Shown here: positions 3,945-17,637 of the stretch, piece after piece | Numbering within the stretch: position 1 is the stretch's first letter | Layout of the letters: each line of letters starts with the position of its first letter | From: a bacterium | GTDB taxonomy: Bacteria > UBP18 > UBA7526 | Assembly: GCA_030619985.1 (NCBI GenBank) | Contig: JAUXAI010000017.1 | Coordinates: 1 to 18,504 of the forward strand | Direction of reading: 5' to 3' | DNA length: 18,504 bases | The notes under the pieces: model-generated | Seen by the model: the letters and a program-made list of their open reading frames with translations, nothing else | What the model was told of the DNA's origin: nothing | Databases searched by the model: none | Made by a program: the position numbers and the translations under genes

Positions 3945-3975
3945 AGTAACCAGTAACCAGTGAACAGTAACCAGT
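3945..3975. repeat. AGTAACC heptamer repeat after groEL (copy 1)
   Basis: The units are AGTAACC, AGTAACC, AGTGAAC, AGTAACC and a final AGT. The repeat starts two bases after the groEL stop codon. It differs by one base from the 31-base block at 10264-10294, which starts inside the ileS stop codon. Confidence 0.8.
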
Positions 3976-5202: not shown

Positions 5203-6012
5203 ATGCTGAAAGAGAGGATTGCTTTTCTGGGAGTGGGGAATATGGCCACGGCTTTAATGAGAGGAATTATTGAGGCAGAACTCATCAGGCCAGAGAATAT
5301 CATTATAAGTGACATCGATAAAGAAAAATTAAAAATTAAAAGTGAAAAATTAAAAGTTAAAGCAGCCAAGGATAATTACAAAGCAGCAAGGAAAGCAGAT
5401 GTTATTATTTTAGCGGTGAAGCCCAATGATATGGAAGGGCTTCTAAATGAGATTAAGGACTCTTTGGAGCCGAAAAAGCTGGTAATTTCTATTGCTGCTG
5501 GAATTACCACTTCCTATATTGAGAAGATGTTAAAAAAGGAAGTCCCGGTTGTCAGGGTTATGCCCAATACTCCAGTAGCGGTGAAGGAGGGGGCGAGCGC
5601 CTTTGCTATAGGAAAGCATGTTTTCCCGGAGCAAGAGGAGATAGTAAAGAGCATCTTTGGGGCAGTGGGGAAGATAGTTAAGGTAGAGGAGAACCTCATG
5701 GATACTATTACTGCTCTTTCGGGAAGTGGCCCGGCCTATATCTTCTATATCATCGCCTCTTTAGTTGAAGCGGCGGTCTCCCTGGGACTGGATAAGAAGA
5801 CCGCCACCACCCTCGCTATCCAGACGGTCCTCGGTTCTGCTAAATTACTTCAGGAGACGGGTGAAGAGCCTGCTACCCTAAAAGAGAAAGTAACCTCTAA
5901 AGGAGGGACGACAGAGGCTGCCTTATTAGTCCTGGATGAGGAAAAACTAAAAGAGACTCTGGACAAAGCATTAAAGGCCGCCGCCAAGAGATCAGAAGAG
6001 CTTAAAAGGTAA
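5203..6012 (+). CDS. proC: Pyrroline-5-carboxylate reductase
   Basis: This is the last step of proline synthesis, the NAD(P)H reduction of pyrroline-5-carboxylate in the cytosol. The ATG at 5203 is six bases after AGGAGG (5191-5196); a TTG at 5197 overlaps that spacing and is unlikely. The 269 residues carry the Rossmann motif FLGVGNMATA (8-17), AVKP (71-74), MPNTP (120-124), the signature ALSGSGPAY (171-179) and TSKGGTT (231-237). Residues 41-54 (KLKIKSEKLKVK and flanks) are encoded by five phased 7-base units at 5324-5358. In relatives this stretch normally holds a KYGV-type turn. Overall length is normal, so the repeat seems to replace a loop rather than extend it. It heads a proC-yggT-mtnA operon. 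Confidence 0.96.
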   Translation: MLKERIAFLGVGNMATALMRGIIEAELIRPENIIISDIDKEKLKIKSEKLKVKAAKDNYKAARKADVIILAVKPNDMEGLLNEIKDSLEPKKLVISIAAGITTSYIEKMLKKEVPVVRVMPNTPVAVKEGASAFAIGKHVFPEQEEIVKSIFGAVGKIVKVEENLMDTITALSGSGPAYIFYIIASLVEAAVSLGLDKKTATTLAIQTVLGSAKLLQETGEEPATLKEKVTSKGGTTEAALLVLDEEKLKETLDKALKAAAKRSEELKR

Positions 6013-7514: not shown

Positions 7515-10265
7515 ATGGATTACAATAAAACTCTTTATCTACCAAAGACGAAATTTCCCATGAAGGCCGAGCTTCCTAAGAAGGAGCCGGAGATACTCTC
7601 TTTCTGGGATAGAGTGGATATCTATCAGAAGATAAGAGATAAGAGGAAGGGGGCCAAGAAGTACATTCTTCACGATGGCCCCCCCTATGCCAATGGGGGT
7701 GTCCACATTGGGACCGCCCTCAATAAAATATTAAAGGACATCATCGTCAAGTTCAAGACTATGTCTGGTTTTGATGCCCCCTTTGTTCCTGGCTGGGACT
7801 GTCATGGCCTGCCCATCGAACACCAGGTGATGAAGCTCTTGGGTGCAGAAGGCTTGAAAATTTCCCAGATAGAGATTAGGAAGAAATGCCAGAAATATGC
7901 CAAAAAATATATCGATATTCAAAGAAAGCAGTTCAAGAGATTAGGGATCTTCGGCGACTGGGAAAAGCCATATCTTACGTTAGATTTTAAATACGAAGCA
8001 AAGATCATAGAAGTCTTCAGTCGACTCATTAAGGATGGCTACATCTACAAGAGGAAGAAACCCATCCACTGGTGCCCCACCTGCAAGACCGCCTTGGCAG
8101 AAGCGGAGCTGGAATATAAGGATCGCATCTCCCCCTCCATCTATGTCAAGTTTAAATTAGTCGACGGATCACAGATCACCGATCACCGATCACCGACTTA
8201 TATTATCATCTGGACCACCACTCCCTGGACGCTCCTGGGCAATGTGGCCATTGCCTTCCATCCCGACTTCGATTACCAACTCCTCAAGATAAACGATGAG
8301 ATATTCATTATGTTAAAAGATTTAGTTGCCCCTATTATGGAGAGGCTAGGGATAGAGAACTTTGAGGTGTTGGATACCGTTAAGGGTAAGAGATTTGAGG
8401 GATTGGAGTGCCAGCATCCCTTTTTGGATAGGAGATCAAGGCTCATTTTAGCAGATTATGTTACTAAAGAAGACGGGACGGGCTGTGTTCACACTGCACC
8501 GGGCCATGGAGAGGAAGATTACCAGAGTGGAGTGAAGTATGATCTACCCATCCTCTCCCCAGTGGATGAGAGAGGGGAGTTTACTGAAGAGGCAGGAGAG
8601 TTTAAAGGTCAGGATGTCTTTAAGGCGAATGAAGGAATCATTAAGAAACTAAAAGAGACCGGAAATCTAATCTATGAGGAAACTCTTATCCATTCCTATC
8701 CCCATTGCTGGAGGTGTAAGAACCCGGTCATCTTTCGGGCAACGGAGCAGTGGTTCATTTCCGTGGACCATAAGAATTTAAGGAGAAGAGCACTTACTGA
8801 AATAGACAAAGTGGAATGGATCCCGGATTGGGGCAGATCGCGCATCAGGGGGATGGTGGAGGTGCGTCCTGACTGGTGTATCTCGAGGCAGAGGGCCTGG
8901 GGGGTTCCCCTTCCTATATTCTACTGTGAAAAGTGCAATCGCTATTTAGCAAGTGAAGAGAGCCTGGAAGCAGTTAAGGAATTAGTAAGAAGGGAGGGCT
9001 CTGATAGCTGGTTTAAGAAGGGAGTAGATGAGATTCTTCCTCAAGGCATTACCTGTCCCAATTGTGGAGAAAAGAATTTTAGGAAAGAAACCGATATCTT
9101 AGATGTCTGGTTCGAATCTGGGGTGAGCCATAAGGCGGTATTAACTACCAGAGAAGAACTTTCCTATCCTTCTGATCTCTACTTAGAGGGAAGCGACCAG
9201 CACCGGGGATGGTTCCAGAGCTCTCTATTGACCGCCTTAGGATGTGAAGAGAAGACTCCCTATAAATCGGTTCTCACCCATGGCTTCATGGTGGATGGCG
9301 AGAGGAGGAAGATGTCCAAGTCCTTAGGAAACCTCATCTCTTCTGAAGAGATGGTTAAAAAAAACGGGGCAGATGTTACCAGATTATGGGTGGCCTCTGA
9401 GAACTATCAGGAGGATGTTGCCTACTCTGATGAGATAATAGAGAGGATGCAGGAGGCCTATCGCAGAATCCGGAATACCTTCCGCTATCTTCTGGGGAAC
9501 CTCTCCGACTTCGATCCCAAAAAAGATAGCATAAAATATGATGAGATGTTGGAGATAGATAGATGGGCCCTCTCCCAGTTGCAGAGTCTCCTGGAGAAGG
9601 TGACCAAGGCCTACCACAGTTTCTCCTTCTATCAGATCTACCATCTGGTCCACAACTTCTGCACCATTCAGCTATCTTCTTTCTACTTCGATATCCTGAA
9701 AGATAGATTATATACCCAGGGAAAAGATTCAAAGGAGAGGCGTTCTGCCCAGACCGCCCTCCATGAGATACTCCTAGTTTCAGTAAAGATTATGGCTCCC
9801 ATCCTCTCCTATACCATAGAGGAGGTCTGGGAATATCTTCCCGGCGAGAAAGAGGAAAGCGCCCATCTCTCTGACTGGCCAAAAGTAAATAAGAGATTCT
9901 TGAATAAAAAATTGGAAGAGAGATGGGAGAAATTGATCTCCATCAGGGAAAGGGTCTTAGCCTCCTTAGAAAAGGCCAGGAAGGAGAAGAGAATAGGTAA
10001 CTCCTTAGAGGCAGAGGTGGAGATCCGTTGTGAGAAGGAATACCAATTCCTGAAAAAATATGAGAAAGATCTTCCTGCTTTGTTCATCGTCTCTAAGGTA
10101 AGGTTAGTGAAGAAAGGAAATGGAGAGATGGTGGTCAAAGTGAAAAAGGCGCCAGGAAAGAAATGTAGCCGCTGTTGGAACTATTCCATAGAAGTGGGCA
10201 AAAGTAAAGAGCACCCTACCCTCTGCCCAAGGTGCATTAGAGTAATCAAGAAATATTACAGTTAG
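7515..10265 (+). CDS. ileS: Isoleucyl-tRNA synthetase
   Basis: This class I synthetase charges tRNA-Ile in the cytosol. It has 916 residues and begins MDYNKTLYLPKTKFPMKAEL as is usual for bacterial IleS. Active-site motifs are HIGT (64-67) and KMSKS (599-603). GWDCHGLPIE lies in the Rossmann fold, and TTTPWTLLGN opens the CP1 editing domain. A CPTC pair (HWCPTC) precedes the editing domain. Cys884, 887, 904 and 907 form the C-terminal zinc finger, so it is the bacterial zinc-containing type. Residues 218-227 are encoded by four 7-base units (GATCACA, then GATCACC three times, 8167-8194) in a variable loop just before the editing motif. The Shine-Dalgarno is weak (AGATAGAAAAG). Its stop codon lies in a heptamer repeat. 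Confidence 0.98.
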   Translation: MDYNKTLYLPKTKFPMKAELPKKEPEILSFWDRVDIYQKIRDKRKGAKKYILHDGPPYANGGVHIGTALNKILKDIIVKFKTMSGFDAPFVPGWDCHGLPIEHQVMKLLGAEGLKISQIEIRKKCQKYAKKYIDIQRKQFKRLGIFGDWEKPYLTLDFKYEAKIIEVFSRLIKDGYIYKRKKPIHWCPTCKTALAEAELEYKDRISPSIYVKFKLVDGSQITDHRSPTYIIIWTTTPWTLLGNVAIAFHPDFDYQLLKINDEIFIMLKDLVAPIMERLGIENFEVLDTVKGKRFEGLECQHPFLDRRSRLILADYVTKEDGTGCVHTAPGHGEEDYQSGVKYDLPILSPVDERGEFTEEAGEFKGQDVFKANEGIIKKLKETGNLIYEETLIHSYPHCWRCKNPVIFRATEQWFISVDHKNLRRRALTEIDKVEWIPDWGRSRIRGMVEVRPDWCISRQRAWGVPLPIFYCEKCNRYLASEESLEAVKELVRREGSDSWFKKGVDEILPQGITCPNCGEKNFRKETDILDVWFESGVSHKAVLTTREELSYPSDLYLEGSDQHRGWFQSSLLTALGCEEKTPYKSVLTHGFMVDGERRKMSKSLGNLISSEEMVKKNGADVTRLWVASENYQEDVAYSDEIIERMQEAYRRIRNTFRYLLGNLSDFDPKKDSIKYDEMLEIDRWALSQLQSLLEKVTKAYHSFSFYQIYHLVHNFCTIQLSSFYFDILKDRLYTQGKDSKERRSAQTALHEILLVSVKIMAPILSYTIEEVWEYLPGEKEESAHLSDWPKVNKRFLNKKLEERWEKLISIRERVLASLEKARKEKRIGNSLEAEVEIRCEKEYQFLKKYEKDLPALFIVSKVRLVKKGNGEMVVKVKKAPGKKCSRCWNYSIEVGKSKEHPTLCPRCIRVIKKYYS
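8167..8194. repeat. GATCACC heptamer repeat inside ileS
   Basis: Four tandem units, GATCACA followed by three GATCACC, encode about residues 218-227 (SQITDHRSP region) in the loop ahead of the CP1 editing domain. Four units are 28 bases, which is not a multiple of three, so gain or loss of one unit would break the gene. Confidence 0.85.
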
Positions 10266-10326
10266 TAACCAGTAACCAGCGAACAGTAACCAGTTTTTAA
10301 CTGTACACTGTAAACTGTTAACTCCG
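10264..10326. repeat. Nine phased heptamers between ileS and the DUF5665 gene
   Basis: The units are AGTAACC, AGTAACC, AGCGAAC, AGTAACC, AGTTTTT, AACTGTA, CACTGTA, AACTGTT and AACTCCG, with no break in phase over 63 bases. The first two bases of the array are the last two of the ileS TAG. The unit sequence shifts from AGTAACC-like to AACTGTA-like while the 7-base period is kept. Confidence 0.85.
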
Positions 10327-10343: not shown

Positions 10344-10673
10344 ATGGAAGAGAAAGAGATCAAAAGAGAAAATGAGGCTAAAGCCTTAGAGAAGTTAAAG
10401 ACTACAGTGCAGGGATTATCCGAACACTTGGAGAAGTTGAGAAGTGAGTATGTGGAACTCTTCAAAAGACCCCGGAAATTCATCTGGATGAACCTTTTCT
10501 TAGGAATAGTGCGTGGGGTAGGGATGTTTATTGGAATGGCGGTCCTGGGTGCTATCTTGGTTGCTATTGGTACGATGATTATGAAAAAGGGGGAAGCTCT
10601 TCCAATAATTGGAGAATTCTTTGCCAAGATCAATCAGGTACTAGATCAGGTACTGAAGACGAGTGGTAAATAG
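10344..10673 (+). CDS. DUF5665-like small membrane protein
   Basis: The protein has 109 residues. A charged, probably coiled-coil N-terminus (about 1-40) contains LEKLRSEYVELFKRPRKF. NLFLGIVRGVG (50-60) follows, leading into one hydrophobic helix or hairpin (about 58-80), then a short loop, LPIIGEFFAKI (86-96) and an amphipathic tail. The pattern of Tyr before a KRP segment, an N-x3-G-x2-RG-x-G motif and PIIG matches DUF5665 proteins, found in many Gram-positive and deep-branching bacteria. Their function is unknown. It lies between ileS and the traR-like gene and may be expressed from the ileS transcript. Confidence 0.75.
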   Translation: MEEKEIKRENEAKALEKLKTTVQGLSEHLEKLRSEYVELFKRPRKFIWMNLFLGIVRGVGMFIGMAVLGAILVAIGTMIMKKGEALPIIGEFFAKINQVLDQVLKTSGK

Positions 10674-10683
10674 CGTGAGGGAT

Positions 10684-10711
10684 TTACGGTTAACGGTGTA
10701 CGGTTTACGGT
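10684..10711. repeat. TTACGGT heptamer repeat
   Basis: Four units stand in phase: TTACGGT, TAACGGT, GTACGGT, TTACGGT. Inverted counterparts (ACCGTAA, ACGGTAA) follow at 10752-10765, so the two arrays can pair across a T-rich centre. GAGGG (10677-10681) and CCCTC (10718-10722) frame the first array and are followed by TCTCTTTTT, which may serve as a weak terminator. Confidence 0.7.
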
Positions 10712-10855
10712 AAAAAACCCTCTCTCTTTTTACTTAAGATTACGATCCTAAACCGTAAACGGTAAACAGCCCGAAGGGCGGGCAAATTGAATAGTAGTTA
10801 TTCATCAGCGGGGCAAGTGAAACGCACCGCTCAACGGTAAACGATTGATAGAAGG
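10712..10855. other. Intergenic segment before the traR-like gene: inverted repeats and hairpins
   Basis: Besides the inverted heptamers, this stretch holds the imperfect palindrome GCCCGAAGGGCGGGC (10769-10783). It also has TGAATA (10788-10793) pairing with TATTCA (10799-10804), and AGCGG (10807-10811) pairing with CCGCT (10827-10831). No ORF or clear promoter is seen. The Shine-Dalgarno AAGGAGG follows at 10853-10859. Confidence 0.45.
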
Positions 10856-13457: not shown

Positions 13458-14426
13458 ATGCTCCGGTTCGTCATTGACCAACCCCAGGCCAACCAGAGAA
13501 TAGACCTCTACCTTGTTCAAAAAAGATTAGGTCTCTCTCGCTCCCGGATTCAGAAGTTAATTTCCTCTGGCAGGGTAAAGGTAAACGATTCAGTTGTAAA
13601 ACCAAGTTATAAAGTAAGAGTTGGGGATAGGGTAGAGGTCACTATTCCCAAACCAAAGCCTCTTAAGATAGAGCCAGAGAAGATCCCGCTCAATATCCTC
13701 TATGAAGATAGGGATTTGATAGTAGTGAACAAGCCGCGAGGAATAGTTGTTCATCCCGGAGCCGGGATATCCTCTGGCACCTTAGTAAATGCTTTACTCT
13801 ATCACTGTAAGGACTTATCTGGTATCGGTGGAGTTTTGAGGCCAGGGATTGTCCATAGGTTGGATAAGGATACCAGCGGGGTCTTAGTAATAGCCAAGAA
13901 CGACTTTACCCATCTTGCCCTATCTAAGCAGTTCAAAGAGAGAAGCGTCAATAAGAGATATATTGCTTTAGTAAAGGGTAGAATCTTAAGAGAGCAAGGA
14001 AAGATTAAGGTTCCTATCGGTCGCCATCCAGTCAGAAGGAAGAAGATGGCGGCTGGAGTAAGAAGGGCAAGAGGAGCCATTACCAGTTATAAGGTCTTAG
14101 AGAGGTTTAAGGACTTGACTCTCTTAGAAGCCATCCCAGAGACAGGAAGGACCCACCAGATAAGGGTTCATCTCTCCCATATCGGCCATTCCATTGTGGG
14201 AGACCCGAAATACGGCAAAAGACTCCGAACTCTCCCTCGGGGACCTCGAGTCCCCTCGGGACGAGAGGCGAACTCCGAACTCCGAACTGCCATAGCAGAC
14301 CTTAAAGGGCAATTGCTACATGCTCAGACACTGGGATTTATTCATCCCAGAACCAAGGAATATATGGAATTCAACGCACCCCTGCCAGAGGATATGGAAA
14401 AGGTAATTGAACTCTTAAGAAAATGA
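13458..14426 (+). CDS. rluD: Pseudouridine synthase, RluD/RluA family
   Basis: The enzyme isomerises uridine to pseudouridine in RNA; the RluD group acts on 23S rRNA helix 69, but the exact target here is not proven. The 322 residues comprise an S4 RNA-binding domain (about 13-60, QRIDLYLVQKRLGLSRSRIQ), VNKPRGIVVHPG, the catalytic motif HRLDKDTSG (133-141, Asp136), ETGRTHQIRVHL, GDPKYGKR, and LLHAQTLGFIHP near the end. Residues about 255-277 (RLRTLPRGPRVPSG and on to SELRTA) are encoded by a palindrome flanked by CTCCGAA heptamers and make the linker about nine residues longer than usual. No strong Shine-Dalgarno is seen; it starts one base after the lipoprotein stop, so coupling is likely. 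It overlaps the next gene by ATGA. Confidence 0.93.
   Translation: MLRFVIDQPQANQRIDLYLVQKRLGLSRSRIQKLISSGRVKVNDSVVKPSYKVRVGDRVEVTIPKPKPLKIEPEKIPLNILYEDRDLIVVNKPRGIVVHPGAGISSGTLVNALLYHCKDLSGIGGVLRPGIVHRLDKDTSGVLVIAKNDFTHLALSKQFKERSVNKRYIALVKGRILREQGKIKVPIGRHPVRRKKMAAGVRRARGAITSYKVLERFKDLTLLEAIPETGRTHQIRVHLSHIGHSIVGDPKYGKRLRTLPRGPRVPSGREANSELRTAIADLKGQLLHAQTLGFIHPRTKEYMEFNAPLPEDMEKVIELLRK
14220..14291. repeat. Palindrome plus CTCCGAA heptamers inside rluD
   Basis: GGGGAC (14239-14244) pairs with GTCCCC (14250-14255), and CTCTC (14230-14234) with GAGAG (14263-14267) outside it. CTCCGAA occurs at 14223-14229, 14273-14279 and 14280-14286, so the hairpin is flanked by direct repeats. The whole block is read through in frame. 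Confidence 0.8.
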
Positions 14427-15201: not shown

Positions 15202-17637
15202 GTGAAAAAATCTTTTTTGGAAAGATTGAAGAGTGAAATACTGGTCTTTGATGGGGCGATGGGGACAGAACTGCCTCTCAATCTGGGGAGATGCCCTGAA
15301 GAGCTGAACCTCACCCATCCAGAGGTAGTGGCTAAGGTCCATTCCTCCTATGTCGAGGCTGGTGCAGATGTCATTACTACTAACACTTTTGGAGGGAATA
15401 GACTAAAATTAAAGGAGAGCGGCTTAGAGGATAGATTAGAAGAGGTCAATATTAAGGGAATAGAGATAGCAAAGCAAGTGGCAAGAGGAAAGGCATTCGT
15501 TGCTGCCTCTGTTGGCCCCACCGGGAAGCTATTGGAGCCCTTAGGCGAGTTTACCTTTGACCAGTTTTACGATGTCTATCGAGAACAGATAAAGGTCCTT
15601 GCTCAGGCAGGAGCAGACATCATCATCCTGGAGACCATGATTGATATTCAGGAGGCGAAGATCGCCCTCATGGCCGCAAAAGAGAGTTGTAATCTTCCCG
15701 TAATCTCTTCCCTTACTTTTACCGAAGAGGGAAGGATGGTTACGGGAAGCGATCCTTTGATAGCCACCACTATCTTAGAGCCCTTGAGGCCAGATGTCTT
15801 AGGAGCAAACTGCAGCCTGGGACCCAAGGGATTAATGAAAGTAATGAAAAAATTTGCTTCGGCGACCGATCTTCCTCTCATTGTGGAGCCCAATGCTGGA
15901 CTTCCCCGGATGGTTCAAGGAAAGACCGTCTATCCCGCCTCTCCAGATTATATGGCGAGGTATGCTTCAGAGTTTGTTAACCTTGGAATAAATGTCGTAG
16001 GGAGTTGTTGCGGAAGCGGGCCAGAGCATACTAAGGCCATTATCAGTAAAGTAAAAAGTAGAAAACCCAAAGAGAGAAAAGTAATATCCAGGATGCACTT
16101 AGCATCGAGAACAAAGGCAGTATCCTTTGCTTGCCCCGTAGGTTTACCCCGTAGGCTTGTCCTTCGGGGCTTGTCCTTCGGGGATAAGAAACCAATCATC
16201 GTTGGGGAGAGAATAAATCCTACGGGAAAAAAGGCCCTTCAGGAGGAGTTAAGGAATGATAGGTTCTCTTTGGTGAGGGAGGAGGCAAAGAGGCAGGAAG
16301 AAGAAGGGGCAAAGGTCTTGGATATAAATGTTATTGGAGAAGGGATAGACGAGGCGAGGGCTTTGAGGAAGGCGATCCTTGTTATAGAGAAGACAACTGA
16401 CCTACCCATTTCCATCGATAGCCCCAATTCAGAAGCGATTGAGAAGGCCCTGAAGGTAGTGGGAGGAAAGGCACTCATCAATTCGGTAAATGGGAAAGAG
16501 AAATCTTTAAAAGTTATATTGCCCCTGGCCAAGAGGTTCGGAGCAGCGATTATTGGATTGACCTTAGATAAAGAGGGAATACCGAGGACCGTCGAGAAGA
16601 AACTCCAGATTGCCAAGAAGATTGTTAAAAAGGCAGTAGAAGTCGGGATTTCTAAAGAGGACATCTTCATCGATACCCTTACTTTGACAGTAGCCAGCCA
16701 GCAGGAGCAGGCCTTAGAATCCTTAGAGGCCTTGAAGCTAATAAAGAAAGAGTTAGGAGTAAAGACTATTTTAGGAATAAGCAATATCTCCTTCGGCCTT
16801 CCCAATAGACCGCTATTAAATGCTACTTTTTATCATCTGGCGAAGAGGTACGGTCTGGATGCTGCCATCATAAATCCTAAGGATGTTAAGTTGAAGGGTT
16901 CCTCTTTAGCATTGAAAGTTCTTAAGGGTGAGGATAAAGGAGCAAAGGAGTATATCAAGGTCCAGAAGGGAATAATAGAAGAAGAGATTAAACCAAAAGA
17001 AGAAGCGGATATTAGAATTCAGTTGAAAGAAGCAATTATTGAAGGTAATAAGGAAGATATCTTAAGACTTACGGAAGAGGCCCTGAAAGAAGAACTTAAG
17101 CCCTTAAAGATTATGGACGAGATTCTGACCCCGGCCATTACTTTAGTTGGTGAGAGATACGATGAAGGGATCTACTTTTTACCTCAGCTCATATCTTCTG
17201 CAGAGGTCATGAAATTGGCCTGTGAGAGATTAAACAAAGAAATGAAGAAAGAGACCATCTCTACCCAAGGGAGGATAGTTATGGCTACGGTAGAGGGAGA
17301 CATCCACGATATCGGAAAGAATATCGTCTCCTTGCTTCTCTCCAATCATGGCTTTAGAGTGATCGATTTAGGAAAGGATGTTAAGAAAGAAAAGATCATC
17401 CAGGAGACAATCTCTCAAAAGGCAGATCTTATCGGCCTCTCTGCTCTAATGACCACTACTATGGGCCGGATGAAAGAGATAAGTGACGAACTAAAGAGAC
17501 GCAGGATAAATATTCCCACTTTAGTAGGAGGTGCAGTAGTAACCAGTCAGTATGCTAAAAAAATTGGAGCGACCTACGCTAAAGATGCCATTGAAGCGGT
17601 AAGGAAAGCAAAGGAACTTATAAAGGAGAAGAGATGA
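15202..17637 (+). CDS. metH: Cobalamin-dependent methionine synthase, without activation domain
   Basis: MetH moves a methyl group from methyl-tetrahydrofolate through cobalamin to homocysteine. The GTG at 15202 follows AAGG (15191-15194) and leads into the normal N-terminus ILVFDGAMGTEL. The 811 residues hold a homocysteine domain (about 1-290, zinc Cys204 in GANCSLGP and Cys269/Cys270 in GSCCG) and a pterin-binding domain (about 329-580, starting PIIVGERINPTG). A cobalamin cap (about 610-690) and a cobalamin-binding domain (about 695-811) follow, with cobalt ligand His702 in GDIHDIGKN. The protein ends there, as in Thermotoga MetH; the activation domain is encoded just upstream. Residues 310-326 of the linker look like a repeat-derived insertion. 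ATGA overlaps the next gene. Confidence 0.95.
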   Translation: MKKSFLERLKSEILVFDGAMGTELPLNLGRCPEELNLTHPEVVAKVHSSYVEAGADVITTNTFGGNRLKLKESGLEDRLEEVNIKGIEIAKQVARGKAFVAASVGPTGKLLEPLGEFTFDQFYDVYREQIKVLAQAGADIIILETMIDIQEAKIALMAAKESCNLPVISSLTFTEEGRMVTGSDPLIATTILEPLRPDVLGANCSLGPKGLMKVMKKFASATDLPLIVEPNAGLPRMVQGKTVYPASPDYMARYASEFVNLGINVVGSCCGSGPEHTKAIISKVKSRKPKERKVISRMHLASRTKAVSFACPVGLPRRLVLRGLSFGDKKPIIVGERINPTGKKALQEELRNDRFSLVREEAKRQEEEGAKVLDINVIGEGIDEARALRKAILVIEKTTDLPISIDSPNSEAIEKALKVVGGKALINSVNGKEKSLKVILPLAKRFGAAIIGLTLDKEGIPRTVEKKLQIAKKIVKKAVEVGISKEDIFIDTLTLTVASQQEQALESLEALKLIKKELGVKTILGISNISFGLPNRPLLNATFYHLAKRYGLDAAIINPKDVKLKGSSLALKVLKGEDKGAKEYIKVQKGIIEEEIKPKEEADIRIQLKEAIIEGNKEDILRLTEEALKEELKPLKIMDEILTPAITLVGERYDEGIYFLPQLISSAEVMKLACERLNKEMKKETISTQGRIVMATVEGDIHDIGKNIVSLLLSNHGFRVIDLGKDVKKEKIIQETISQKADLIGLSALMTTTMGRMKEISDELKRRRINIPTLVGGAVVTSQYAKKIGATYAKDAIEAVRKAKELIKEKR
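16129..16183. repeat. 14-base tandem repeat inserted in the metH linker
   Basis: CTTGTCCTTCGGGG occurs twice in tandem (16156-16169, 16170-16183), after two CCCCGTAGG-containing units (16134-16142, 16147-16155). The codons before and near the end of the insert both read Ser-Phe (AVSF before, GLSF after). Removing 51 bases (16129-16179) would restore a normal AVSF-GDKKP linker. Confidence 0.8.

Follow-up and report, generated by a model that had tools for sequence, protein, structure and literature searches.

A run of heptanucleotides between ileS and the following DUF5665 gene changes its letters along its length and seems to keep its period, and it raises the question of whether a process that fixes the length rather than the sequence of the unit has produced it. 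We analyzed the window, a stretch of 18,504 nt from a UBP18 bacterium (G000; 1.25 Mb in 91 contigs, 84% complete), together with its five relatives (G001–G005), among which G002 is a congener and G003 belongs to another genus. The gene assignments of the preliminary description hold (ileS, 7515–10265; the DUF5665 gene, 10344–10673; groEL, proC, an rluD-type gene and a dksA/traR-type gene), as does its outline of the array: 63 nt at 10264–10326 can be divided into nine 7-mers, the first base falls on position 2 of the TAG stop codon of ileS, and the array reaches a CGACC..GGTCG hairpin carrying the Shine–Dalgarno sequence.

Nine 7-mers fit this span, but they are not nine consecutive units of one array. 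Tandem Repeats Finder called period 7 in two blocks, 10264–10294 (4.4 copies) and 10299–10323 (3.6 copies), and the actual build is a four-unit left arm, a loop and an inverted right arm. The left arm (10264–10294, plus strand), which begins within the stop codon, reads AGTAACC AGTAACC AGCGAAC AGTAACC AGT. The loop (10291–10299, unstranded) is T-rich (AGTTTTT). The right arm (10299–10323, minus strand) reads AACTGTA CACTGTA AACTGTT AACT, or, as its reverse complement, AGTTAAC AGTTTAC AGTGTAC AGTT. The text does change from AGTAACC to AACTGTA to AACTCCG, as had been described, but AACTCCG occurs once and has no array of its own. That the period never slips across this change carries little information, because it is the loop that determines how far apart the arms lie, and in other copies of the same element this distance covers every class modulo 7. 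Phase lock across the loop was considered as a property of the family and rejected, as loop length varies.

Tandem Repeats Finder also called period 7 at the other sites that had been named (3945, 5324, 8167, 10683 and 14269). The array at 3945–3975 (plus strand), 3 nt past the groEL stop codon, is a second copy of the left arm (AGTAACC AGTAACC AGTGAAC AGTAACC AGT), for which no right arm was found. Behind the DUF5665 gene lies a second hairpin element, with a left arm at 10683–10711 (plus strand; TTTACGG TTAACGG TGTACGG TTTACGG) that differs from its G002 ortholog by one substitution, and an inverted partner arm at 10749–10767 (minus strand; TAAACCG TAAACGG TAAAC). In-frame arrays without the two-arm form, all on the plus strand, occur in ileS (8164–8196, GATCACC units), in proC (5324–5361, AAAAATT units) and in the rluD-type pseudouridine synthase gene (14269–14288, CGAACTC units). 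A period-8 array between two genes (704–776, unstranded) has as its G002 counterpart a heptamer-armed cassette with nested content. In a metH-like ORF (16154–16183), GGCTTGTCCTTCGG is present twice in perfect copies, and the G002 ortholog is without them.

The left arm of the array behind ileS contains a 23-mer core, AGTAACCAGCGAACAGTAACCAG (10271–10293), which includes the odd unit AGCGAAC. Exact copies of this core number 16 in G000, 16 in G002, 1 in G001, 5 in G003, 4 in G004 and 8 in G005 (34 in the five relatives); 284 other genomes contained none, and the reversed control gave 0. Because a composite 23-mer with an odd unit recurs at 16 places in the genome, the window array belongs, as one of its copies, to a hairpin element that is dispersed and lineage-specific, and is not an independent product of slippage. 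The idea that each array was generated independently is not supported by this observation.

We examined 36 copies in their sequence context. Their left side begins with AGTTTAC or AGTAACC and their right side typically ends with ACTGGTTACT or ACTGTTAACT; the ends are alike, AGT on the left and ACT on the right, and most of the 36 have inverted arms. Within an arm, 7-nt units follow one another, and each unit combines a conserved AGT/CAG core with about three bases that vary. The loops are short and T- or A-rich, hold unrelated sequence, or are occupied by another cassette, made of ATCAGAAC octamers, TAAATCC heptamers or GTTTACGG heptamers. At L021/L191, the outer arms are common to G000 and G002 and the loop contents differ. 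The copies, about 60 nt or more in length, are intergenic and often lie shortly past stop codons; for period-7 arrays the median distance is 18 nt after the stop. The predicted RNA fold of the window copy was not more stable than that of shuffled sequence (z of −0.76), and other cassettes gave −3.3 and −2.6. Behind the DUF5665 gene of G005 (L058:2555–2790), a nested quasi-palindrome with 8-mer arms around 7-mer arms gave −6.7. Rfam had no match in the whole window.

Such copies resemble REP elements and MITEs (PMC3733652), which are short, dispersed, intergenic hairpins, lineage-specific and present in many copies, and which are apparently moved in trans. Like MITEs, they are dispersed, with 16 exact cores in G000, and bear terminal inverted repeats, as seen in most of the 36 copies in context. 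In contrast to REPs, which are palindromes of 20–40 bp with a GTAG/CGTC end tag, often linked to a RAYT (PMC3733652), the arms here are periodic, and by eye no shared tag of that kind was seen among the copies in context. No target-site duplication was seen at the cleaner empty sites; the flanks there differ too, so replacement is possible, and in the comparison of orthologous sites flanks appeared replaced rather than cleanly duplicated. Our searches for mobilizing enzymes covered RVT_1 and, among transposases, Y1_Tnp. Neither an RVT_1 reverse transcriptase domain nor a Y1 transposase (PF01797) had a match in G000–G003, which are incomplete MAGs, and a RAYT can be lost. Within the incompleteness of the genomes, these results count against a standard REP/RAYT pair and against a reverse-transcribed unit, which the preliminary description had listed as one possibility and which we find unsupported. 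A separate short element with the ends CCCCGTTAGA...TCTAACGGGG, which one sister species has and the other lacks, resembles a conventional MITE; its sites are L019:357–367 (empty) versus G002 L073, L020:13496–13643 and the G002 locus facing L022:1199, and at one site it has TTTA flanks on both sides.

Is a period of 7 peculiar to these repeats? We counted segments with strong lag-p self-similarity in 324 kb of G000, namely the window and 20 further stretches, a non-random sample with many contigs picked for containing AGTAACC. At p of 6, 7, 8, 9 and 10 the counts were 9, 92, 63, 23 and 11, respectively. An order-3 Markov simulation gave 0 arrays at p of 7 and 8 and 1 at p of 9, and simulations of orders 1 and 5 gave 0–2. 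The G002 sample (370 kb) bears on the selection bias, since it was not selected for repeats and has the same profile (8, 87, 59, 12 and 20). The excess of 7 that had been predicted over 6 and 8 is therefore evident against period 6, but period 8 is nearly as over-represented; periods 9 and 10 are over-represented likewise, and a reading in terms of period 7 only fails. Many unit sequences had also been predicted, and the 324 kb indeed held 55 distinct period-7 consensus units in 27 families, with 30 of the 55 unit texts also present in G002. Many of these families have a single member in the sample and could stem from slippage. Overall clustering of the unit texts (0.90) was not above that of shuffled units (0.83–0.92).

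The preferred lag of single 5-mers was sharp: 7 for GTAAC, ACCAG and ACCGT; 8 for ACAAG, GTTGA and ATCAG; 9 for CAGGG and ACCCT; and 10 for ATCTG, ATTCG and CGCGA. Period is a property of the repeat family and not of the genome, each core having its own preferred period. The strongest single excess of a 5-mer at a given lag in the sample was that of ATCTG at lag 10. Arrays of 8 and 9 nt have the same build as the heptamers, with, for example, ACAAGGGTG units standing opposite ACCCCTGTT units; at L014:15950–16055 and similar loci, period-9 arrays of ACAAGGGTG/ACCCCTGTT fold into regular hairpins whose short stems are separated by single mismatches. Period-10 families, ATTCGCG/CGCGAAT and CACGGAT/ATCCGTG, were noticed at L019:11035, L020:15477 and the G002 locus facing L014:8114. 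We then scored inverted partners within 90 bp (score of at least 10), using as a control the arrays paired with the surroundings of other arrays. Partners were found for 29 of 92 period-7, 30 of 63 period-8 and 14 of 23 period-9 arrays, compared with 3 of 92, 7 of 63 and 0 of 23 in the control; direct similarity near period-7 arrays was also raised (17 of 92). Since arrays of 8, 9 and 10 nt, alike in build, coexist in the genome and each core has its own period, a mechanism that fixes length at 7 is unsupported.

To follow the arrays over time, G000 and G002 were compared over about 82 kb of syntenic spans, with genes called by a simple longest-ORF rule. Identity was 86% in coding sequence, 62% in intergenic sequence outside arrays and 18% in intergenic arrays. 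Many gaps have a cassette in both species, yet a different one. The ileS–DUF5665 gap is identical in G002. In G003 it holds the same hairpin, with the right arm one heptamer shorter and the middle of the left arm different; G001 is without such an element, and G004 and G005 have other arrays. Given the identical gap in G002 and the same hairpin in another genus, these alignments indicate that the window copy predates the split of the two genera and was later lost or replaced in some lineages. Gain and loss of units in orthologous gaps, which had been proposed as a check, were seen as whole-unit differences. Among them are −7 nt in the right arm at two loci; the ileS gap and L014:10424 each differ by a single unit. 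Within an ORF, L022:816 showed a difference of 21 nt.

Some sites retain the period and not the text. Nineteen period-7 arrays of G000 lay inside a single G002 alignment and were less than 75% identical; in 14 of them the G002 counterpart had a lag-7 score of at least 7 (0.5% of random segments score at least 8). In six of the 14 the difference consists mainly of unit or block indels, the case is weak, or the text is largely the same (for example, L014:10424, L019:13684, L021:6367 and L022:816), and about eight have a clearly different unit in G002. These (G000/G002) are AAAAATT/AGGAGTT in proC, in register; CGAACTC/AAAACTT in the rluD-type gene; ATTGAAC/GTTAACC at L020:10292; ACCGGTG/ACCCTTG at L020:8894; CTTGGAG/ATTTTTG at L022:10971; GCTTGGA/GTTTTGA at L025:5837; ACAGGCC/ACCAGTT at L016:19214; and ACTGGTT/TCACTGT at L020:3470. 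The AAAAATT array of proC is common to G000 and G003, so the AGGAGTT text of G002 is probably the derived state. The array within ileS (GATCACC/GTTCACC/GATTACC) is common to four species of three genera, with GTTCACC/GATTACC variants in G002–G004, and the G001 site has AAAGTCC units. Old and new units, aligned in register, agree at 2–5 of 7 positions in the eight cases; in most of them the agreement exceeds the one quarter that chance would give. In our reading, homologous arrays drifted at the rewritten sites, and unit turnover would have spread the variants. We keep as an alternative that a copy from another place replaced the array, because for three of the eight new units the match to existing families is significantly better than for shuffled units; on the same comparison, reuse of vocabulary at rewritten sites is only partly supported. 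Of the notion that period is fixed and text free, one part stands, in that the period is kept with a new unit at several coding sites, but no mechanism fixing length at 7 follows from it. On the sequences compared, unit turnover together with concerted drift is the best account of a fixed period with changing letters.

On a wider scale, we scanned 290 genomes of 261 genera for five CAGT cores at 7-nt spacing (CAGTNNN repeated). Such arrays were present in 24 of the genomes and 22 of the genera; a reversed control matched some as well, being compatible with other heptamer families. In an unrelated genome, G188, there are two-arm heptamer hairpins designed much like the window element (L116:4830–4897 and L116:7221–7283), for example AGTAACA AGTAACA AGTGTCA AGTATCA AGTTTGA AACTGGC CACTGGA. 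Of 35 genomes from outside the family, taken without selection (629 kb), two had at least five period-7 arrays; in this set period 7 (26 arrays) exceeded periods 5, 8, 10 and 11, about equaled 9 and 12, and was below 6, periods divisible by three being raised because of coding sequence.

Cyanobacterial STRR elements are heptanucleotide tandem arrays between genes, with a fixed unit in each family; periods of 8–10 and a hairpin form, both present here, are not known to be part of that description. The limited literature searched gave no paper on STRR or on inverted 7-bp tandem repeats, and papers naming UBP18 were general ones on candidate phyla. To say that the unit is fixed in known heptamer families was too strong, since the (GGGAATC/GGGANTN)n repeats of Xanthomonas, usually of about four units, are heterogeneous and form 70–75 inverted pairs per genome (PMC4692102). 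Like the present arrays, they have a conserved core with variable positions, are mostly intergenic and nearer the upstream gene, and differ between sister species (PMC4692102). They constitute one G-rich, quadruplex-forming family, whereas here there are many A+T-richer families with periods of 7–10, nested cassettes and in-register rewriting within genes, and the window element, with its AGT/CAG core, has no G-tract. The TAACTGA direct repeats of marine Beggiatoaceae, Cyanobacteria and Bacteroidetes (PMC4679880) are likewise intergenic, between neighboring genes, with a 7-nt period, and on the other strand the unit becomes CAGTTAT, which has the CAGTNNN core. They have, however, a single fixed text, with related heptamers rarely repeated and nearly no inverted repeats, in contrast to the mixed texts and inverted arms described here.

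We think it more likely than not that the window array is a copy of a dispersed, non-coding, REP- or MITE-like hairpin, confined to the family as far as tested, which spread and was then edited by slippage. Their spread would rest on a copying process, in which either a trans-acting enzyme moves the copies or template switching is combined with ectopic recombination of one arm with another. Arms already inserted would gain and lose whole units by slippage, and the same turnover would spread variant units within an array, so that the period is inherited while the text drifts fast. Fixed period with changing letters would then need no device that measures 7 nt, the 8-, 9- and 10-nt families behaving alike. 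Slippage of DNA polymerase with a step of about 7 nt could instead have made each array independently, as Mrazek proposed (cited via PMC4679880 and PMC4692102); many bacteria have heptamers as their most frequent long simple repeats, no class here is larger than that of period 7, which comes with many unit texts and whole-unit indels, and some unselected genomes of other families also have several period-7 arrays. Yet identical composites at many loci already weaken this account, inverted partner arms are not expected from slippage alone, and families of period 8, 9 and 10 coexist, each core with its own period. Copy number does change by whole units, as in long SSRs, but the loci do not look independently expanded, and we judge slippage alone to be an unlikely origin. 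We entertain, as a tentative conjecture that is more likely wrong than right, a copying system for hairpin cassettes not described so far, in which the arm period would be fixed (7, 8, 9 or 10, each with its own core vocabulary), units would be rewritten together at a fixed site even in essential genes like ileS, period and register would persist, and similar arrays would occur in scattered bacteria.

Selection on the arrays as binding sites or mRNA hairpins, forming a post-transcriptional network rewritten along with its reader, as proposed for TAACTGA in Beggiatoaceae, would accord with their position shortly past stop codons and with cassettes that fold better than shuffles. It would also accord with the location of 97 of 112 intergenic arrays in co-directional gaps, yet co-directionality is the rule among such gaps (174 of 192). 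No sequence in our comparison is less conserved than intergenic arrays, arrays also lie inside genes, and the window copy shows neither a fold signal nor, like the rest of the window, an Rfam match; we therefore hold a selected network to be quite improbable, and a host benefit of the dispersed hairpin, for example as a 3′-end mRNA hairpin in operons, is unproven. Several units per array differ together between the sister species at orthologous sites (proC and rluD), which a reverse-transcribed or templated rewriting system, akin to diversity-generating retroelements and writing units of fixed length, might produce. The extent of in-register identity between old and new units fits drift of a homologous array instead, and with no RVT_1 domain in the four genomes searched, we give such a system hardly any credence.

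Already established are the excess of heptamers in bacteria, known since 2007 (Mrazek, as cited in PMC4679880 and PMC4692102), the heterogeneous heptamers of Xanthomonas with their inverted pairs (PMC4692102) and the TAACTGA repeats (PMC4679880). What is new, to our knowledge and within the limited literature, is that one genome contains several period classes, that composite hairpins are dispersed and have nested loops, and that units are rewritten in register within genes. Heptamer excess has been attributed to polymerase slippage; in this lineage, a single genome combines periods from 7 to 10 with inverted arms, with identical composites at scattered places and with loops that enclose other cassettes, which points to mobile hairpin cassettes instead. 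The arrays rewritten in register within genes form a natural series on which to test how a period is inherited without its sequence, and this question extends past one lineage, because arrays with the CAGTNNN core occur across genera of the wide scan.
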